The notes under the pieces: generated by a model
What the model was told of the DNA's origin: nothing
The model's input: only the letters and a program-made list of their open reading frames with translations
Databases searched by the model: none
Source: Spiroplasma endosymbiont of Dioctria linearis
GTDB taxonomy: Bacteria; Bacillota_I; Bacilli_A; Mycoplasmatales; Mycoplasmataceae
Reading direction: 5' to 3'
NCBI RefSeq assembly: GCF_964030865.1
Contig: NZ_OZ034984.1
Location: 620,001 to 684,000 of the forward strand
DNA: 64,000 bases
Part shown: positions 12,845-31,481 of the stretch, in pieces
Position numbering within the stretch: the first letter of the stretch is position 1
How the letters are laid out: each line of letters opens with the position of its first letter
Translations under genes and position numbers: made by a program

Positions 12845-13375
12845 ATGCGTAGAAAATCAGATTTTTATAAAAGTATTGAAAATGAATTTAAGATTATTTC
12901 TGAAAAGGAACATTTAAATAGTTCAGGTAATCCTGTAAATAATCTTAATACAAAAATGTTTTATTTATTAAAACATCACTTTAACTCATTTGAAGAATTT
13001 GATCAAGCAATAATAGAAGAAATTTCAAATACACTACAATCACTTGAAGAAGTAATTGTAAAAAAAGCACTTTCTTTTCAAAGACTAGCAAAAGAGGTAT
13101 TCAGCGAAAATATTAATCCACAAAAATGAGTGGATTTTGCTCAAAAAGAAGCACAAGCTTTAAGTTATGAAATGTATGATGAAAGTGAAATTAAATATTT
13201 AAGACATTTTCATATTGTTTGACTTACATGAGTTTATTGTGATGAAGAATTAAAAAAATTAAGAATTAAGGCAAGTAGAGATGTTTATAATAACATTGGT
13301 CAAGTTGAAAAGGATTATATGAGAAAACGTGCTCAAATATTAAAAGACCATAATGGTGGAACTGATAAGTGATAA
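12845..13375 (+). CDS. conserved hypothetical protein of Mollicutes type
   Basis: A 176-residue soluble, mostly helical protein; TTAGGGGA lies before the ATG. The last codon is TGA (Trp) followed by TAA. The N-terminal half has a leucine-rich amphipathic stretch (FDQAIIEEISNTLQSLEEVIV). The C-terminal half contains the Trp-rich block HFHIVWLTWVYCDEELKKL and a basic tail (DYMRKRAQILKDHN). It has no signal peptide, membrane segment or enzyme motif that I can recognise. It may belong to the Mollicutes-restricted MG284/MPN403 group, but that is only a guess from its general character. It stands alone between an extended -10 promoter and a strong terminator. Confidence 0.7.
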
Positions 13376-13507: not shown

Positions 13508-16480
13508 TTATCCTTTTAATTTTCTATACTCAGGTTTTGGATTTTTTAAAGACTTCGTTCAATCCCCTGCAAATGCTCTAGCGAAATCATATTCCTCTAA
13601 ATATGCTAAACCATGAGTTAATAAACTTTTATTAACTGGTTTTTTAGAATGAACATCTAATCCTCTATCATCATTCATTGATCACATTCCAATATATCCT
13701 AAACCAACATTATGACTTCAGTTATACAATTCTTTTGCATCTTCTTCAGTAAATACGCCTAGAACTGTATCATTAACACCAATCATTGGAGTTGCTCCAA
13801 TTAATTTATAAAGACCTTGGTTTCCAATTGAAACTTTTCCATAATTTTTTTCAATTGAAGTTGCTAAGTTATTTTTTGTAGCATTTACTGCTTCTCTTGC
13901 TAAATCAAAGTTAGTTAATCCATCTTTGATTGCTTGTGCATAAATTGGGTCCCCATAGTCCATTAACATTAAATTAACTACTGGTAGATCTTTTTCATCT
14001 AATCCAGCTTTTTTAAATTCTTCAACAAATATATTCATTACACGATAACCAACAGAAGTTAAACCGGTAGGCAATACTGGTAAAGTTACTGAAAAGTCTC
14101 ATGATTTATCTTCTTTTTTCATTTCAGCAATTGTTGCTGCCAATAATCTATTATCTTCATCTAATTCTTGAGCATGTCCTTCAATATCAAAATCAATTGC
14201 TTTTGGCATTTTAACATTTTTGCCTTTTTTGTTAGCTAATTTTACCAATGAATCTTGATAACGAATTAGACCTTCTTTAAGATCTTTTTTTGCTTTTTCA
14301 GGACTATTTGGATTTAATTTATTTGCTAAAGTTCAAGGATTTTTTTCTGTAAATCCACCTGTAGTTGCTCCACCATAAGCTACTTTTATATTTTCAAAGG
14401 TATTTTGATCTGCAAATGGTTTTAAAATTTTATCTCAAAGTTGATTGCTTTCTCATCAGTCAAAACCTTCAGTCCCTGTTTCACTACCTGCAATTGATAA
14501 ATCTAAGTAATCACCATGATTATTTACTTGTTGCACAAAAGCTAATGTTAAGTGGTCAAGTCCATTAACACTAGAAGTAATATTTTGCATATTATTTCCT
14601 TCATATAACCCAGCATCTAAATAAGGTGAGAAATATGTTGATTTATTTGCTTTTGTTTTTTTAGTAATTGAAGATTTTCTATTTGGATTTGCATCACTTC
14701 ATTTTGTATATAGACTTTTTCCAGGTCCAGTTGGAGGCATAATTGCTTCTCCTCCACTAGATCCTGCTCCAGGTCCAGGGTTTGTTCCCCCACCACCTTC
14801 TCATGAAGGTCCTTCTCAATTACCAGGATTTTCTAAATTGTCTAATGCTTTATTTGCTTGAATATCATTTTTATAATCAATAGCCTTTAACTCCTTAATA
14901 ACTTCCTCTTTATCTGTAATTTCTTTTGGAATAGCATTTGCTAATAAATTTCCATTCAATGCTTCTGCATATGTAAATTGTTTGAAACCTGAGCCAGATC
15001 TAATGTTTTGATCTAATGCATTTTGGTCAGCTTGAGCTGGACCTGTTAATCCATTATCTTGAAAATGACTTGGTACATCTCTTGAAATATAGAACATTCC
15101 TAAACCACCAAATTCCTCTTTAACAGCTCAAGTTCTTAATTCAGCTGCATCTTTTGGAGTAAAGTTATAAGCAGCAGCTTCAGCTCTTCTTCCAATTCAA
15201 GGAGTGATTTTAATTCTTTTTTTCATGTAACTTAGATCTTTTTCATCTCCATTTGTTACTTTATTTATTTCCATTCAATTTTGTGCTGATTGTAAAGCTC
15301 CATCTTGGATTTGCTTTAATTCTCAATCACTATCAGTATTAACATCATTTGGCACAGTTAGATAACCTGTAACTAAATTTAATCTAAAATTAATACCTAA
15401 ATATTTTGTAAAGTTATATAAAGGATAAATTTCATCACCTAATAAATTTAAATTATTAACTCCCTTATCTCCAAAACCAGGATGTAATGCAAGACCATCT
15501 TCTGTAGACATTACAAGTGATAATTGGAAATCATAACTTAAATCTTTTTCAATTAAAATTTTTAAAGCACTAGCCAATAGTATTTGTGAATCTAAGTAAT
15601 CTCCTTGACGTGATAAATACGGTGCTGCAAAATAAAAATCAAACTTTTTAGTACCATATTTTTTTCCAACATTTTCAATTACTTCTGCCAATTCTTCTGG
15701 AGTTTTATTATTTTGTCAAGCGGAATGCCATAAAGAATTGGCAAAAGGTCCAAAAGAAATTCTTACATTTTCTGGATTTAAATTCCCACCATCATTATGA
15801 CTTGTTATTTTTGTTTTAGAACTTTTTTTTGTTCAATCTCTATATCTATCATTAAATCATTTAGCATATTCAGTTTCTTCACCTTCTTTAGCTAAAATTC
15901 CTTTTCCATCACCTTTTGAAGGTCCAGCATTTCACATTGGAACTAAATCACCAGTATCTGCTGCATTTTGCATAAATCCTAATGTTACTTCTGAATTTTG
16001 TGTAATAACATTTTCTTTACCAGCTATTTCACCTAAGTCATTATAAATAATATTTTTTCCATTTAAACTTTTTTCTGCTTCAGCTCTTGTACCTTGACTT
16101 TTTCCTTTATCTTTCATCAAGTATTCTGCTGTATCTTCAACAATTCCCATATCTGCATAGGGAGAGAAAATAAACTCATCAGAGTTAATTGTTAATTTTT
16201 CAACACCTGCTAAAGAAGATCTATCTTCTTCTTTAATAACTCCATAAGTTAAACTATTTTTATTTGTATTTTTTGTTAATAAGTCCTTTGATATTTGCTT
16301 TTTAACACTATTTTGTTTTATAGTATTAATTTCATTATTTATGTTTCCATTACCTTTTCATTGTTCACCTGTTTCAAAAGTTTTGTCTTTTGCATCCATT
16401 ACATTTCCACAAGCTACAACTGAACCACCAGCAGATACAACTAAGCTTGTACTTGCTAATAAATTTAATAATTTTTTCAT
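13508..16480 (-). CDS. two-domain GH18 chitinase-like lipoprotein A
   Basis: A 990-residue lipoprotein. The signal peptide MKKLLNLLASTSLVVSAGG ends in lipobox V-V-A-C, with acylated Cys24. Two related domains follow, each opening with FSPYxDxG and an LTLGF/LTLAF strand. The second (about 610-985) keeps the GH18 catalytic signature D-F-D-I-E-G near residue 765, with an SxGG-like loop VAYGGATTGG before it. In the first (about 110-490) the same position reads D-F-Y-F-A-A, so the catalytic Glu is missing. A Gly/Pro/Ser-rich linker (GGGGTNPGPGAGSSGG) joins them. GH18 enzymes cleave chitin or related GlcNAc polymers outside the cell, which fits an insect associate. A paralogue follows upstream. AAGGACAAAAT precedes the ATG. 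Confidence 0.8.
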
Positions 16481-16882
16481 ATTTTGTCCTTATCCATTTA
16501 GTATAGAATATTACTAATATTTTTATTATATCTAAAAAGTATTTATTTTTCAAAAATATTTTTATAAATTAAAAATATTTCTATAAGGATAAATATCATT
16601 ATAAAAGAAAAAACTCCTTTTTAAAAGAGTTTTTGATTTTTAAACTAGAGTTTATACCTGTTTTTAGCAATTTTATGTTCTGGCTTAGGATTTTTCAATG
16701 AACTTGTTCAATCTCCAGTAAAGGCTCTAGCAAAGTCATATTCTTCCAAATAAGCTAAACCATGAGTTAATAAACTTTTGTTTATTGGCTTTTTAGTATG
16801 AACATCTAATCCTCTATCATCATTCATTGATCACATTCCAATATATCCTAAACCAACATTGTGGCTTCAATTATACAATTCT
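13559..16882. repeat. long direct repeat formed by the two GH18-like genes
   Basis: The 3' parts of the two genes align base for base with an offset of about 3149. Example: the 60 bases from 13651 and from 16800 appear identical. Similar blocks recur through the second domains, so the genes are a tandem duplication with homology long enough for RecA-mediated exchange. Confidence 0.75.
16608..16636 (-). terminator. terminator between the two GH18-like genes
   Basis: AAAAACTC/GAGTTTTT stem with a 10-base loop, 9 bases beyond the stop of lipoprotein B. The T run on the minus strand is interrupted after five bases. Confidence 0.65.
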
Positions 16883-19632
16883 TTTGCATCTTCTTCAGTA
16901 AATACACCTCAAACTGTATCATTAACTCCAATCATTGGAGTTGCCCCAATTAATTTATAAAGTCCTTCATTACCAATTGAAACTTTTCCATAATTACTTT
17001 CAATTGAAGTTGCTAAGTTATTTTTTGTAGCATTTACTGCTTGTTTTGCTAAATCAAAGTTAGTTAATCCATCTTTGATAGCTTGTACATAAATCGGATC
17101 ACCATAGTCCATTAACATTAAGTTAACAACTGGTATATCAGCTTGGCTTAATCCTGCTTTTTTAAATTCTTCAACAAATATATTCATTACACGATAACCA
17201 ACAGAAGTTAAACCTGTAGGCAATACTGGTAAAGTTAATGAGAAATCTCAATCCTTATCTTCTTTTTTCATTTCAGCAATTGTTGCTGCCAACAATCTAT
17301 TATCCTCATCTAATTCTTGAGCATGTCCTTCAATATCAAAGTCAATTGCTTTTGGCATATTAACATCTTTATAACCATTTTTATTAGCTAAATTAACTAA
17401 TGATTCTTGATAGCCAATTAAAGATTTTTTAAGTTCTTCTTTTGCTGTTAGTGTATTTTTAGCAAACAATTTATTTGCTAAAGTTCAAGGATTTTTATCT
17501 GTAAATCCACCTGTAGTTGCTCCACCATAAGCCACTTTAATATTTTCAAATTTATTTTGCTTTGCCATTGGTTCTAAAATTTTACCTCAGAATTGACTGT
17601 TTTCTCATCACTCAAAACCTTCAGTACCTGTTTCACTACCTGCAATTGATAAATCTAAGTAGTCACCATGGTTATTAACTTGTTGTACAAAGGCTAGTGT
17701 TAGGTGATCAAATCCGTTAACACTAGAAGTAATATTTTGCATATTATTTCCTTCATATAATCCAGCATCTAAATATGGAGAAAAATAAGTAAAACTGTTA
17801 GATTTTGTTTTTTTAGTAATTGAAGAAGTTCTATTCGGATTTGACTCACTTCATTTTGTATAAAGACTTTTTCCAGGTCCAGTTGGAGGTGCAATAACCT
17901 CTCCACCATTTCCTCCACCTGTTCCAGGTCCAGGGTTTGTTCCCCCACCACCTTCTCATGAAGGGCCTTCTCAACTACCACCAGTTTCTAAATTATCCAA
18001 AGATGTATTAGCTAGAATATCTTCATGATAATCAATTCCACCAATTTTTTTAATTCCATCTTTATCTTTTTCCTCAATTACTGGTACTGTTTCACCTGAA
18101 ATTGTTCCATTTAAAGCTTTTGCATATGTAAATTGTTCAAAACCTGTACCTGATCTAATATTTTGATCTAGTGCATTTCTGTCAGCTTGTGCAGGACCTG
18201 TTGCGCCATTGTCTAAAAATTCACTTGGTACATCTCTTGATATATAAAACATTCCTAAACCACCAAAGTTTTGTTCTTTTGCTCAAACTCTTAAATCAGC
18301 TGCATTTTTAGGTGTAAAGTTATATGCTGCTGCTTCAGCTCTTCTTCCAATTCAAGGAGTGATTTTAATTCTTTTATTTACAAATTTTTTATCTTTTGAT
18401 ACACCATTTATAATATTATTTAATTTATTTCAATTTTGTGCTGATTGTAAAGCTCCATTTTTAACAATTTCTAACTCTCAATCACTATCAGTATTAACAT
18501 CATTTGGTACAGTTAAGTAACCTGTAACTAAATTTAATCTAAAGTTCATTCCTAAATATTTTGTAAAGTTATATAATGGATATATCTCATCACCTATTAA
18601 ATTTAAGTTTACTTGACCATGTTCTCCAAAACCAGGAGCTAATGCAACTCCATCTTTTGTTGACATTACAAGTGATAATTGAAAATCATAAGTTGGGTCA
18701 CTTTCAATTAATATTTTTAAAGCACTTGCTAATAATTTTTGTGAATCAGCATAATCTCCTCTAGCTGATAAATATGGTGCTGCAAAATAGAAATCAAATT
18801 TTTTAGTATCGTATCTATATCCAACTGCTTTAATAACTTGCGCTAACTCTTCTGGAGTCTTGTTATTTTGTCATGCTGTATGTCACAATGAATTAGCAAA
18901 AGGTCCAAATGAAATTCTTACATTTTCTGGATTTAATTGCCCACCTTTTCCTTTTATTTTTTCACTTCCATTTTTATCTTGCCCAGTTCAATTTCTGTAT
19001 CTGTCATTAAATCATTGAGCATATTCAGTTTCTTTGCCTTTTTCAGCTAAGATTCCTTTACCATCTCCTTTTGATGGACCAGCATTTCACATCGGAACTA
19101 ACTCACCTGTGTCTGCTGCATTTTGCATAAATCCTAATGTTACTTCTGAATCATTAGTTATAACTGTTGAGTCTTCAGCAATTTGTCCTAAGTCATTATA
19201 AACAACATTGTTTTTTAAACTTTTTTCTGCAACATCTCTAGTTCCCTGACTTTTACCTTTTTCTTTCATCAAGTACTCTGCTGTATCTTCAACAATTCCC
19301 ATATCTGCATAAGGTGAAAATACAAATTCCCCATCATTAACTGTTAAAATATCTTTATTTGCTAAAGAAGATCTATCTTTTTCTTCAATAGTAGCATATG
19401 TTGAACTTTTAATACTTGTATTTTTTATCAACAAATCCTTAGAGATTTGCTTTTTAATGCTATTTTCTTTTAGCTTAGAAACCTCTTGATTAATAGCTCC
19501 ATTACCTTTTCATTTTGCTCCAGTTTCATAGTCTTTATCATCTTTATCTAAGTTACTTGTACAAGCAACAACAGAAGATCCTGCTGAAACTGATAAAGTT
19601 ACAGTTGCTAATAAATTTAATAATTTTTTCAT
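16645..19632 (-). CDS. two-domain GH18 chitinase-like lipoprotein B
   Basis: A 995-residue paralogue of the downstream lipoprotein A, colinear over its whole length. Its signal peptide ends in lipobox V-V-A-C with Cys24. The first domain again has D-F-Y-F-A-A where a catalytic GH18 has DxDxE. The second keeps D-F-D-I-E-G near residue 766, the AYGGATTGG loop and the LMLMDYGDPIY strand that should carry the substrate-binding Asp/Tyr. The two genes share stretches of near-identical DNA, e.g. about 60 identical bases at 16800-16860 and 13651-13711. They differ most in the N-terminal 100 residues and the region before the linker. It has its own terminator and probably its own promoter. Extracellular glycan cleavage or binding is inferred. 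Confidence 0.8.
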
Positions 19633-19767: not shown

Positions 19768-21102
19768 TTAATTATCGTTTTTTATAACTCATTGTTCTTC
19801 ACCTATTTTATTAATAGACTCAATTATTAAAGAAACCAGCTGCTCAATTTGATAATTTGAATAAAAAGGATATTTTCTATCAAAATAAGGCTGCATATAT
19901 TTTAATTTTGTATTATATTTTGTAAGTCATTGATTGGCAATGTCATTAAGTTCTGTCATTGCTTCTCTTTGTTTTCTAGATTTAATTTCACTTTTTAAAT
20001 CTGAGTTTAATTGACCATATAATTCATTTGATTTTAAAGTTAATCATTTTTGAAACATAGCATAATTTGATACACCGCTTTGAATAACAGGAGAAACTAT
20101 GTATCTATGTCTATAATTTTTAAACTTTTCTCATGAGGTATTTGAGACTCCATTTTCATTCGATAAGTTGTTTTGAATATATGTCTTATGTTCTATCAAA
20201 TTAGTATCAAATAGTTTGATAGTAGATAAGTAATCAATAGGTAATTTGAAATTTGAGTTAGTATTTACTGAATATCGAGAAATACCTTCAAAAATCTCCT
20301 CATTTTCAAAATTAAATTGATTAAAGTAATAAGTATTTATTGAGTCCAATTTTATAAAAATAAAATTAGTTAAATCAAAAAAACTAATGTTTCTTTTTAT
20401 TCATTTCCTTAAATTCTCAGTTTTCATAAATTGATCGATATTCATTTCTAACTCTCTTTTTATATATCGCTCATAAATAAAGGACTCTAATGATTTTGAA
20501 ACATATTCATTAAATCACCTTAATAAATAATAGTCTGCATCATATGAATAATTAAACTCATTTTTCATTGTGTAGTTTATAAGTCTTTTTAAATTAACTA
20601 ATAATCCTGAACTTAATTTATTAACATTCTTAAAATCCTTTGTTAGTTTTAATACTATATCATTTTCTTTAATTCCATTACGATTTACCCAGTATATTGA
20701 TTCATTATTTACCATGCTAGCAATTACAGAAACAATTCTAAAGTTTATCTTTACATTTTTATAATTGAAAACTAAATTTATATAATTCTTATCTGTATGG
20801 ATTTCAGGAACAACCTTATATGTTTTTGAAACTCTTAATATTGTTTCACTTAAATCTGATATTTTAATTAAAGAAGCACTTAGATATTTAACTGCACAAA
20901 GATCAAGATTAATTACATTATTTATTTTCATATATGAATGATATGCAAAATCACCAACTTTTTTTAAATGAATTTTTTCATTTAAAAAAAGTTGTTTTAA
21001 TTCCTTAAAATAGGAATTTATTTTAGTTGTAAATGTCTGCTCTTCTAGAGTTAAGATTTTTACTGTTTTATTAAATTTTCATATATCTTTATTTAATTTC
21101 AT
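19768..21102 (-). CDS. nucleotidyltransferase-fold-like protein, motif-degenerate
   Basis: A 444-residue protein without signal peptide or membrane segment. Residues 49-73, VGDFAYHS then INNVINLDLCAVKY, line up with HGSFATGELYNF then KELNIDLLAIKY in the gene just upstream. In polymerase-beta-type nucleotidyltransferases this region is h-G-S followed by D-x-D. Here the Ser is Asp and the first Asp is Asn, and the third acidic position (VKINFRIVSV) is also lost. The remaining 350 residues are basic, helical and rich in Tyr, Phe and Asn, which fits RNA or nucleotide binding but proves nothing. The ATG lies one base after the stop of the partner gene, so the two are translated together. Function unknown. 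Confidence 0.55.
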
Positions 21103-21103
21103 A

Positions 21104-22285
21104 TTAATCTCTTTCTATTTCAAAAGTAAAGTACTGTAAAAAAATTAAAAATAAACCATTTTCTTTATTTGTTGGATAAATTGTTCTTGAATGAATTTGT
21201 AAATCCAAATTATCATATTTTTGACTTTCCTTTTTTATGGAAATAGTTGTAGAACCTTTAGTATTTTTTAAATATACAACAGAGTCATATCAAAAGAAAA
21301 AGTTTCCATTAATATTTCTTTCCTTATTTTCTAAAAATTTATTAATATAGTGAAAATACTTTTCTAGAAATTTTTGCATACTTGGATATGTTCTATGAAA
21401 AACTCAACTTAAGTTTTTTAATTTAAAAGAATTATAAGTTTTTGCAATTTTTTTACTTCTTTTATAAAAAATATATTTTGAGTCTAAAACATTATCTACC
21501 TCTTTTTTACTTGAAAAATTATAGTCAAAACCAAAATCTAATCATCTTTGTAGGTAAATATTTTTAGTTAAATCATATTGTATCTCAGACATAATACTTA
21601 TTTTTAAAAACAAACGTTCTTGTCTAGTTAATGAACTTCTAAGTTTTATTCTTACATAGTAAAAAAGAATTTGTAGTTTTTTTACTAGCAGCTTATTTAG
21701 CGTACGAAAACTTTTCACATACTCTAATGTAAATGATCTGTTATACATTGTTTTATTACAAATAATTGGTAGGAATTCATTATGCTTAAGCGCAGTTCTA
21801 ATAATTATTGAAAAACCAATTTTTCCCTCTTTATAGAAAGTAATTTTTATTGAGTCTGCAAAAGTTACTATTTTTTTAGGACTATTACATCTATATTTTT
21901 TTACAATTCAACTAACTTTAATATCATTTGATACTTTGTAAAAATTAGTAACAAGTTTAAATATTTCTTTATTAATTTCACAAATTCAACAATCATCAAA
22001 ATGTTCTCTTGTTTCAATTTCTTTTTCATATGTTTTATACATATTTCTGTTTACATATTTTATTGCTAGTAAATCAATATTAAGTTCTTTATCAAAATTA
22101 TAAAGTTCTCCTGTTGCAAAACTACCATGAGTTTTTAATTGGACAATATCTTTTAATTTTGTCTTTAAATAGTAAATGTTTTTATCAATAAATTTCTTAA
22201 ATTTATTATCAATATAAACTTTTTTTAGCTGATTATTAATTTGTTCAATATCAGCTGTAACTAATTTACTTGAAATTTTATCCAT
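21104..22285 (-). CDS. nucleotidyltransferase-fold-like protein, partner of the next gene
   Basis: A 393-residue soluble protein. QLKTHGSFATGELYNFDKE followed by LNIDLLAI (residues 49-75) resembles the start of the polymerase-beta nucleotidyltransferase fold (G-S-x-x-x-G-T ... D-x-D). The first Asp of D-x-D is Asn69 here, and the position expected for the third acidic residue (KIGFSIIIRT) is Ser. Catalysis is therefore doubtful, although D65 and E67 are nearby. The downstream half is basic and aromatic. The ATG at 22285 was chosen because GTGGGGGATAATT provides the ribosome site; it follows the stop of rsmE with the stop and start separated by 2 bases. The next gene downstream is a more degenerate relative. 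Function unknown. Confidence 0.55.
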
Positions 22286-22287
22286 AA

Positions 22288-23004
22288 TTATCCCCCACTT
22301 TTTTCGTAATTTAAGCAACTCAATACAAATAGAGAAGCTGTTTCAGCTCTCATTATATTTTCTCCCAAACCAATACTTTTATAACCTATTTTATTTAATT
22401 TTTTTACTTCTTGAGCATCAATTCCACCCTCAGGTCCAATAATTATATTAATGGTTTTAAATTTCTTTATAATTTCCTTTTTAAGGAACTCATTTGTTGC
22501 TTCTTCTCAGCAAACTAAATTAATGTCTGCCTTATAATATTCCAATTCTTGTAAATTTCTAACAATTGAATTTATTTTTGGAATATCAACTCTTTTTGAT
22601 TGTTTTGCAGCACTTTCACAAATTGCATATCAACGAGTTATCTTTTTTTGTTCGTTTTTGACATCAATTTTTACAACATTTCTTTTAAATTCAACAGGAA
22701 TAATATTATCTACACCAAGTTCCGTAGCTTTTTGGAGAATAAAGTCTCATTTTTGTTCTCTAATAATACCCAAAATCAAATTTACTTTATAGTTCTTTTT
22801 AATTAAATTTTCTTTTGATATTATTCTTGCTTTGCAAGATTTTTCACTTATTTCAAAAATCTTGCATAAGTACTTCTCATCTTGATAAATACAAAATATT
22901 TGCTCTTCTTCTTTTAATTTTATAACATTTTTAATATGATGAAGGTCATCATTTGTTATTTCAAAATAATCTTTCTCAATTTTATCTAAAAAGAAACTAT
23001 GCAT
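22288..23004 (-). CDS. rsmE: 16S rRNA m3U1498 methyltransferase RsmE
   Basis: A 238-residue SPOUT methyltransferase. The N-terminal PUA-like part contains ITNDDLHHIKNVIKLKEEEQ (family H-x-x-x-V-L-R pattern). The catalytic part has LILGIIREQKWDFILQKATELGVDNIIPV, then INIIIGPEGGID and the C-terminal knot GLGENIMRAETAS, all standard RsmE motifs. It methylates N3 of U1498 in the ribosomal decoding region. The gene is first in a tightly packed group with the two nucleotidyltransferase-like genes (2- and 1-base gaps), suggesting a common transcript. It starts 98 bases from a divergent ECF S-component gene. Confidence 0.93.
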
Positions 23005-28763: not shown

Positions 28764-31481
28764 TTAATTTACATCAAATTCTGCTGTTAGATATTTTTCA
28801 TTTAACATTTTATTATAAATTCCTATGCCTACAAATTTATATAATTTTAAAAACATATTTTTCTGTTCATAATTTTGTTTATCATGAAGAAATAAGAATT
28901 TCTTAATAGAATCATTACTAAAATCCCTAATTATCTTATGCTCTATTGACATAGTCTCAGGAATAGATCAATAAAATTTATTTGTTGTTTTATTATATTT
29001 GGTTAATTTACCATAACTAGTTGAGTCTTCATCAGCTAAAATAAGTTGTTTTGAATTATCAAAAGTTAAGTAACCAGCTTGAAAAGTTAGCACTTTCATC
29101 TCATCTCTATAATGTAAAAAATTAGTTCTTCCTAAAACTGATAAGCATTGTTTTACAGTATAAGTAGAATTAACTGATAATAACTTATCAAAATTTCCTT
29201 TATAGTTCAAAATTTCATGTTTTAATTTATATTTTAAAATTAAAATTAGTTCTTCTACTATTAATTTATTATTTATAATAAATTCTTCTACAAGATCGTC
29301 TATTTCCAAATAATTAGGATATAAAGATAAAAACTTTTCCATACTTGTTATCTCGTATAAAAAGGATGTCATAAGTAAATTATCGAAGTCTAGATCTATA
29401 TTCTTTTTATTAATTTTTCCCTCTAAACGATTTAAGAAATAACTTATTATTTGATGATTATCTAAAAAAATAAATTGTTTTAGTATATTTTTATTTCTGT
29501 TTGTATTATTCTCTTTATCTTTAAATTTTGATATTTCCTTTGCTGTTTTTAAAAATAGATCATCTAAAGCATTATAAAAATTTTGTAAAGAGAATTCATA
29601 GTTGTTAATTATTTTTTCTAAAGAATCACTACCATATTTTTTATAATATTTTATAACTTTACTTTTAATAATATTTTTATTTCCATATCATTTTTTTAAA
29701 CTTTGCAAAATTATATTCTCAGTATGTTTTTCTAATGTTATTGTTGAATTATAAGGTAGTCCCTTTTTAATTACATTAAAATTTGTTCCAATTATTTGAG
29801 AACTAAATAGGTTTCTTATTCCTAAAGTAAGATCATATTTATTATCTATATTTGATATTAAATCATATACTTCTAATTTATTTTTTAATTCAGTCTTTCT
29901 AAGACCTCTACCCAATTGCTGCAAATAAACAGTTTTTGAATTTGTTGGTCTTAATAATATTATTGTATTGATCTCTGGTATATCTATACCCTCATTAAAA
30001 ATATTTACTACACATAAATAGTTTATTCTACCAGTTTTAAATTCATACAATATTCTTTTTCTATCTTTATTATTTTCAGCTGTTAATGATTCTGCCCTTA
30101 AATTTTTTGCTTTTAAAAAATTAGAAATAATATTGGCATGTTCTATTGTGATACAAAAAATTAAAGCTGTTGGTCTGGCATATATACCCAAGTACTTCTC
30201 AATAGTCTTATATAATAATTCATTTCTAGATTGTGTATTAATTTTTTTAAATATTTCCCTATCTGAATTTATATCAACTCCATTTAAGTCAGTGGAAGTA
30301 TCATCAATACAGTAATAATCAAAAGGACATAATAATTTTTGATTAATAGCATCTCATAGTCTCAATTCAGAAGCAAATTCATTATTAAAATATTTTTTTA
30401 TATCTTTTCCATCTTCTCTTTCAGGTGTTGCAGTTAAACCAATAATTTGTTTAGGTTGAAAAAAATTAAAAGTTTTTTCAAAAGAATTTGCTGCAATATG
30501 ATGGGCTTCATCAAAAATTAATATATCAAACTGGCTTTTTGAAAAATTATTTATTTTATTTGAAAGAGATTGGATGGTTGCAAAAAGATGTAAAGGTTTC
30601 TCACTAATTATTTGACCATCATATAAAACCTCTCCAAAATTAGGATTATTCAAAACTTCTCTATAGGTATTTAAAGCTTGATCAATAATTTCTTTTTGAT
30701 GTGCTAAAAACAAAATACTTAGATTTTTATTTGAAGTCTCTCATTGTCTTTTAAAGTCAAAAGCCGAAACTAAAGTTTTTCCAGTTCCAGTTGCCATTAC
30801 AATAAGATGCCTATTTTTTCCTTGAAATCTTCTATATGAAAGCTTATCTATAACATCTTTTTGAAATTTATATAAATTTCTTTTTTTATAAATAAATGAG
30901 TTATCTAATTCTAAAATATTTTTTTGCTCTTGATTCTCCTTAATTTTTTGAATTAGTAAATCTCTTTCATAATCATCTGAAAAATCAACCAAATTATCAT
31001 CTCATAGTAAATTAAATTCCTCTATCATTTTTTGAACTAAATCATTATTTTCTTTTGAAGCAAATTTAATATTTCATTCCCTTCCACTAATCATTCCTTT
31101 ATAAGTTAAATTAGAAGAACCTACTATTGCACTATTATAATTTGTTTTTCTTTTAAAGATCGCTGCTTTAATATGTATTCTTTCACTATGTCCCTCTAAA
31201 TTGTCTTCTATCCTTATTTGAATATTGTCATAACTTTCAATTAATTTTTTTAGTTCTTGCAAATTATTGAATTGAGATAAATCATCAAATGTTGTAGAAA
31301 TTATTCTTATTAAAATTTTATTTTTTTGACAATAATTAAATGTTAATGAAATCTTATTTAAAATAGATTTTGATATAAAGGGATAAATTAAATATACTTC
31401 ATCTGATGTTAAAATTTCATTTTGTATTTCAGTTAAAAGTTCTTGCTCATCTTTATTTGTAAAAAATTTATCTTCTTTCAT
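28764..31481 (-). CDS. SF2 helicase with N-terminal PLD-nuclease domain and DUF3427-like tail
   Basis: A 905-residue protein. Residues 1-150 are a phospholipase-D-type nuclease domain, with RIHIKAAIF (H-x-K) and AIVGSSNLTYKGM as its signature. A superfamily 2 helicase core follows: MATGTGKT (Walker A), FDEAHHI (motif II), GLTATPERE (III), NIFNEGIDIPEI and LQQLGRGLRK (VI). The last ~250 residues correspond in place to the DUF3427 region of such proteins. A YLTF-like strand and LADEDSTSYGKLTKYN are visible. Proteins of this layout occur in many bacteria, often near defence or repair genes; their target is not settled. Here it stands alone after a strong terminator. The frame is open throughout when TGA is Trp. 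Confidence 0.82.

Follow-up and report, generated by a model that had tools for sequence, protein, structure and literature searches.

Two adjacent genes, A and B, in the 64,000-nucleotide stretch of DNA analysed here (the window) encode diverged paralogues that are inherited vertically in the spiroplasmas and that appear to be pseudo-nucleotidyltransferases (pseudo-NTases). The reading that we consider likeliest, and hold tentatively, is that the two proteins, having lost catalysis, form a heteromer that would bind RNA or, as a regulatory cue, a nucleotide or partner. Neither the NTase fold nor a pairing of pseudo-NTases is new in itself, and to our knowledge pseudo-NTases have been found mainly in eukaryotes; we know of no other genus-wide bacterial pseudo-NTase pair related to CD-NTases, and it is this that we regard as new. 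Such a vertically inherited pair would show that bacteria, too, can make an immune fold into a core component of the cell, and it would give a testable hypothesis for two unannotated core spiroplasma genes.

The coordinates of A and B (Table 1) require genetic code 4 (TGA = Trp) on this mollicute chromosome (genome 1.23 Mb); the start codons of the open reading frames (ORFs) were partly chosen by hand. Under that code the three genes lie on one strand with gaps of 2 bases between rsmE and A and 1 base between A and B, exactly as the preliminary description of this locus had them. The order along the minus strand is a nusA-like gene, two small genes, infB, rbfA, rsmE, A, B, two lipoprotein-like genes, truB and ribF, where all names except rsmE are our presumption. 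Two ORFs of the locus are on the plus strand, one of 226 aa between rbfA and rsmE and one of 176 aa between the lipoprotein-like genes and truB. In mollicutes, rsmE is treated in the accessible part of PMC4014445.

Table 1. Positions within the window of genes A and B, their altered motifs and the upstream neighbour.
Feature	Position	Strand	Basis or remark
rsmE, 16S rRNA m3U1498 methyltransferase	22288-23004	minus	Pfam PF04452 (1.4e-46), NCBIfam match and synteny; upstream neighbour, context
Gene A, putative 393-aa pseudo-nucleotidyltransferase	21104-22285	minus	Code 4 ORF with five TGA = Trp; orthologues in 26/60 family genomes; N-terminal model with NTase topology
Gene B, putative 444-aa pseudo-nucleotidyltransferase, distant CD-NTase relative	19768-21102	minus	Code 4 ORF with seven TGA = Trp; orthologues in 39/60 family genomes; hhalign to SMODS; model
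A, degenerate NTase motif GS...NID, residues 54-71	22073-22126	minus	Asn69 at the first catalytic acid position, Asp71 retained
A, H-x3-C-x2-C, residues 95-102, putative metal site with Cys176 (21758-21760)	21980-22003	minus	Column conservation
B, degenerate NTase motif GDF...NLD, residues 50-67	20902-20955	minus	Asp51 in place of the GS serine, Asn65 in place of the first acid
B, Arg122 at the third catalytic acid	20737-20739	minus	R28/Y3/N1 (n = 32) versus E7/D4 (11 SMODS proteins)

That A and B are diverged paralogues, with common ancestry across the N-terminal half, follows from direct comparison of their sequences. BLASTP aligned them with an E-value of 6e-5, and hhalign of the two family profiles scored 57.5 (91%), against at most 25.8 for 100 column shuffles, 19.0 for the reversed profile and at most 26.5 for either profile against ten unrelated families of the same loci. 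The NTase-like character that had been noticed in both genes is supported as well: in the AF2 models the N-terminal half of A and of B is predicted, with good support, to have the NTase fold. The models are poor as a whole. Mean pLDDT was only 39.0 for B and 39.4 for A, from shallow alignments of 4 and 5 sequences; block means of the N-terminal parts reached 50-76, with the motif loops below 50 in both. Across residues 2-131 the B model runs aN-b-h-b-a-b-b-b, the N-terminal part of the A model has the same topology, and both contain the a-b-(GS turn)-b(DxD)-a-b-b core that defines the fold. The 50 Foldseek matches listed for B are all what we take to be NTase-fold proteins, and VIA-align placed B on CdnG with Z 11.0 (rmsd 5.7, 163 aligned) and Z 10.4 (3.5, 130 aligned) and on URT1 with Z 9.8 (2.7, 98 aligned). 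For A, terminal uridylyltransferases were the top VIA-align matches (URT1, Z 9.2, rmsd 3.6, 102 aligned), and Foldseek listed Utp22, cGAS and NF90-NF45 first and unrelated epoxide hydrolases after them. No Foldseek E-value was below 0.001 for either protein, and MAB21L1 was not among the fold-search matches listed.

A survey of 60 family genomes found both genes in 25, B without A in 14, A without B in one and neither in 20. A class-wide draw of 296 genomes yielded B in 14 and A in 11, every one of them in this family, and neither gene was found outside the spiroplasmas in the other genomes searched. All 14 genomes with B only belong to one genus (g8), the Citri group. The single A-only genome (G025) is a draft, 85% complete, in which A is cut by a contig end and the interval from A to the 176-aa ORF contains no B. 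A adjoins B in every one of the 25 genomes with both; the gap is -23 to +16 nt in 23 of them, 58 nt in G013, where it follows an early stop, and 292 nt in G027. The pairing of A with B is strong and not obligatory; the pairing in relatives whose lack would have told against the preliminary description is frequent.

A functional tie to rsmE is not supported by the same survey. The three genes are co-oriented neighbours in 24 of the 25 genomes with A and B (rsmE is on the opposite strand in G024), but rsmE occurs in 51 of the 60 family genomes, including genera without A and B, and lies elsewhere than B in the Citri group; an obligatory partnership with rsmE was accordingly rejected. In the Citri group B adjoins FTHFS, which is directly upstream in 11 of the 14 g8 loci, all of which were read; in G075 an opposite-strand ORF lies between FTHFS and B, and the loci of G071 and G074, read without an FTHFS query, showed no recognisable FTHFS ORF upstream of B. 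A 535-aa gene that precedes B in the Citri group was considered as a diverged A and proved to be a formate-tetrahydrofolate ligase (PF01268 in 6 of 6). Three Citri-group genomes (G074, G070 and G075) have rsmE interrupted or in pieces.

A and B are inherited vertically in the spiroplasmas, within the nusA-infB-rbfA-(rsmE)-truB locus. Their trees, built from 21 genomes with G013 omitted, have 13 of 18 splits in common, against a label-shuffle maximum of 3; with rsmE included, the trees share 10-13 of 18 splits, and label shuffles gave no more than 3 in the two pairs tested. Both genes are under purifying selection, with dN/dS ratios in the same four genome pairs of 0.09-0.14 for A, 0.10-0.11 for B and 0.12-0.16 for rsmE, and with similar values in the N- and C-terminal parts of A and B. 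B is broken by several stops in G074, and both genes of G013 contain an early stop, which in B splits the frame, so that the genes seem dispensable in some lineages. One genus, g11 (read in G029), has rbfA, rsmE and truB in the same order, with about 1 kb between rsmE and truB and no detectable A or B. In several lineages the locus is decaying or has gone altogether, and so it is not essential to them.

It is conceivable, though rather unlikely, that B alone is the working protein, through its conserved helical C-terminal half, and that A is an accessory paralogue carried along. B does without A in 14 of the 60 genomes, and its most conserved residues, which are Asn142, Tyr187, Glu199 and Arg276 in 32 of 32 proteins and Arg379, Glu380 and Asp408 in 31 of 32 (one is truncated), all lie within residues 142-408, outside the catalytic block. 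A, for its part, diverges most in genus g12, where Asp71 and a His/Cys cluster are lost. However, purifying selection on A is as strong as that on B in the four genome pairs, and A stays beside B wherever both occur, even if at some distance in G027. The A-B heteromer that we favour would leave B able to act alone in some lineages.

The replacement of catalytic residues is well supported in both families, and we conclude from the alignments that A and B probably catalyse nucleotide transfer no longer. With the columns mapped by the A-B and B-SMODS profile alignments, all three catalytic acids occur together in 0 of 25 A and 0 of 32 B proteins. In these residue tables G013 was kept as the piece before its stop, G025 was omitted and 32 of the 39 genomes with B were included. 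In A the block reads HGSFATGELYNFDKELNID (Asn69, Asp71), and the protein appears to have lost the first and third acids. The first-acid column (residue 69) reads N12 K5 V3 S2 T1 E1 I1 and the second (residue 71) D22 E2 K1 in 25 proteins; the third, which could be placed only by aligning the A and B profiles and is known with less confidence than in B, corresponds to Ser159, with Ser in 14 of 25 proteins and an acidic residue in one. Asn69 and the Ser at the third position agree with the preliminary description, as does the greater alteration of B. B carries GDFAYHSYMKINNVINLD, with Asn65 and Asp67, and its active site appears to have been rebuilt: the GS serine is replaced by Asp or Glu (D23/E9, versus Ser in 11 of 11 SMODS proteins), the first acid mostly by Asn (N21/E7/D4, with Glu in the Citri group, versus Asp in 11 of 11) and the third mostly by Arg. 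Gly50 is retained in 29 of 32 B proteins, and the second-acid column at Asp67 is D22/E10. Asp51 and Arg122 could, speculatively, form a salt bridge where metals once sat.

The preliminary description had proposed an active-or-regulatory pair. An active or semi-active pair, in which one protein still transfers nucleotides through an altered metal site while the other regulates it, is improbable on the residues just given. In its favour are the acidic second position, Asp or Glu in 24 of 25 A and in 32 of 32 B proteins, the retained Gly50, and Asp at the first acid in four B proteins. No member of either family has the whole triad, however, and an active partner is for this reason unsupported; moreover, 32 of 32 B proteins have Arg, Tyr or Asn at the third acid and Asp or Glu in place of the GS serine, and the strongest conservation in B is found outside the catalytic block. 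Because the catalytic residues are replaced in every relative examined, A and B probably have a non-catalytic, perhaps RNA-related, role.

Most A proteins have a further feature. His95, Cys99, Cys102 and Cys176 are all present in the same 22 of 25 proteins and all absent in the three g12 proteins, a joint pattern such as would be expected of one metal site, and the cluster probably binds zinc. As the three g12 proteins have a common ancestry, their joint loss may be a single event.

Among the families tested, the closest profile to B is that of the CD-NTases, for which SMODS (PF18144) is the usual bacterial model according to the accessible part of PMC10732462. Against a full-length SMODS profile, made from 11 of 18 Pfam-SMODS loci of same-class genomes, B scored 60.3 (92.9%, 178 columns), with at most 22.3 for 100 shuffles and 20.0 for the reversed profile; against a shorter N-terminal SMODS profile it scored 51.6, and ten unrelated families scored no more than 21.9 against B. 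Residues 77-444 of B, from which the GS/DxD block has been removed, still match SMODS in the correct register (34.0), so that the match is independent of the motif seen in the preliminary description. The Citri-group B proteins by themselves scored 37.0, and the three g12 B proteins by themselves did not match (21.7). A compared with SMODS directly gave a background score (22.3) and is linked to it only through B. The MNT (NTP_transf_2, PF01909) nucleotidyltransferases have the same superfamily fold, yet unlike SMODS, which scored 47-50 against two MNT profiles, A and B remained at background against both (13-22); these profiles were made from 26 of 29 loci, with two SMODS-type loci dropped and a G-[GS]...D-x-D motif required.

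From these profile comparisons B is recognisably related, over about 170 columns, to the bacterial CD-NTases (cGAS/DncV-like, SMODS) as a distant relative. The alignment spans the NTase core and the helices that immediately follow it, the Gly50, Asp67 and Ser125 positions of B correspond to invariant SMODS columns (residue 125 is Pro in 16 of 32 B proteins), and CdnG gives its best VIA-align matches. In contrast to CD-NTases, B has the GS serine and the first and third acids replaced and is inherited vertically. The curated Pfam SMODS model gave no match at E-values up to 1 in 21 A and 24 B members, and none in the genome of the window. Since B has neither the Pfam match nor the catalytic residues, we do not class it as a member of the CD-NTases, and with its catalytic columns replaced its active site seems unfit for making cyclic or linear oligonucleotides.

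A domesticated or relic anti-phage module of the CBASS type, with B as a former CD-NTase serving as sensor or decoy, is suggested by the closeness of the SMODS profile and by a SMODS match in one genome of the same genus (G016), but we think it has a low probability. PADLOC found no match in A or B. No Cap or other effector gene was recognised next to B in the loci read, nor any CBASS neighbour of either gene, the neighbours being rsmE, rbfA, truB, the 176-aa ORF or FTHFS. Vertical descent and fixed synteny are, moreover, unlike island-like presence, and the catalytic site appears to be gone.

The non-catalytic heteromer is suggested by the tight coupling of the two genes. RNA would be bound in the NTase cleft and by the conserved helical half of B; alternatively, what these surfaces recognise may be a nucleotide or a partner that serves as a regulatory cue. 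Binding of RNA is consistent with the basic character of A (net charge +29, pI 9.63, compared with a background of 42 window ORFs that includes spurious ones) and with the neighbours infB, rbfA, rsmE, truB and nusA, and this setting may also indicate a link to the ribosome. No RNA-binding domain was found in A or B.

The nearest known arrangement is the NF45-NF90 (DZF) pair, described in the accessible part of PMC11952958 as two pseudoenzymes of the NTase fold that form a heterodimer on double-stranded RNA. A and B are likewise predicted to be two homologous NTase-fold pseudoenzymes, and NF90-NF45 is among the first Foldseek matches of A. By this analogy, and with adjacency, charge and RNA-gene context as indirect signs, A and B may form a heteromer that binds RNA. 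The likeness is one of fold only: NF45-NF90 is eukaryotic, and NF90 has two double-stranded-RNA-binding domains, none of which was found in A or B. The same part of that paper reports no appreciable RNA binding by the pseudo-NTase domains of NF45-NF90 alone, which counts against a simple transfer to A and B.

Utp22, a subunit of the small-subunit processome with the NTase fold, has a non-catalytic role in small-subunit biogenesis. It provides the first Foldseek matches of A, with an E-value of only 1.7e-3 in what is a fold comparison only, and is among the VIA-align matches of A too, and A and B adjoin rbfA and rsmE; unlike them, Utp22 is eukaryotic and much larger. A wider idea, which strikes us as unlikely, is that an immune-type CD-NTase was duplicated in the spiroplasmas and became a non-catalytic housekeeping pair acting on the small ribosomal subunit or on structured RNA, an independently evolved bacterial counterpart of NF45-NF90 and Utp22.

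A role in the helical cell body or motility of spiroplasmas, proposed because A and B follow MreB-rich genomes (of the 42 family genomes whose MreB match is strong, with a best E < 1e-100, 39 have B, and none of the 18 with only weaker matches does), is very improbable: the genes have RNA genes as neighbours, both g11 genomes have strong MreB and neither A nor B, for which reason we give the link low weight, and, as Entomoplasma and Mesoplasma have one common ancestor inside Spiroplasma in the accessible part of PMC11567158, one loss could explain the contrast.

The locus had been called possibly undescribed, and indeed no described family was found for A or B in Pfam, NCBIfam or PADLOC. Pfam gave nothing usable, with scattered weak matches of which the best was PF18460 HetR_C (0.0018, in 4 of 24 B members), and NCBIfam, PADLOC, PHROGs and PDB sequences likewise gave no usable match. 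The literature, covered through titles and abstract openings with subscription papers largely outside, contained no description of the two genes. Scans of viral contigs with alignments A1 and A2 found no relative, and neither did a first scan of genome contigs with A1; alignment A1 omits G013 for its early stop, G030 as too diverged and G025 because a contig end cuts the gene, and A2 omits G013. A second scan of genome contigs, with alignment A3, found three Citri-group loci. Relatives of gene B occur in named records of Spiroplasma phoeniceum and S. poulsonii.

Several minor features were observed in and around these genes. In G010, B (G010:C1:1080227-1081744) is lengthened by a Lys/Glu-rich insert, some 60 residues long, that follows the third-acid strand of the NTase core. 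At 20955-20994, just before the GDF motif, the DNA of B matches its own other strand over 40 bases at 90%, an AT-rich inverted repeat within the coding sequence. Between B and the 176-aa ORF are the two tandem, very similar lipoprotein-like genes of about 990 aa (13508-16480 and 16645-19632, minus strand), which have no Pfam match and are absent from this spot in the relatives' loci read. The 176-aa ORF (12845-13375, plus strand), an unannotated gene without a match in a Pfam search, is kept on the opposite strand beside B or truB in several spiroplasma genera. The SMODS match in G016 (G016:C1:694257-694538) is above the curated cut-off in a 112-aa open frame, and may be a real CD-NTase or a remnant. 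In the window's own genome, a 323-aa open frame has a weak NTP_transf_2 (PF01909) match (G000:C1:572047-572274), and within the window a 905-aa ORF (28764-31481, minus strand) resembles what we take to be a phospholipase-D-type nuclease domain joined to a helicase.
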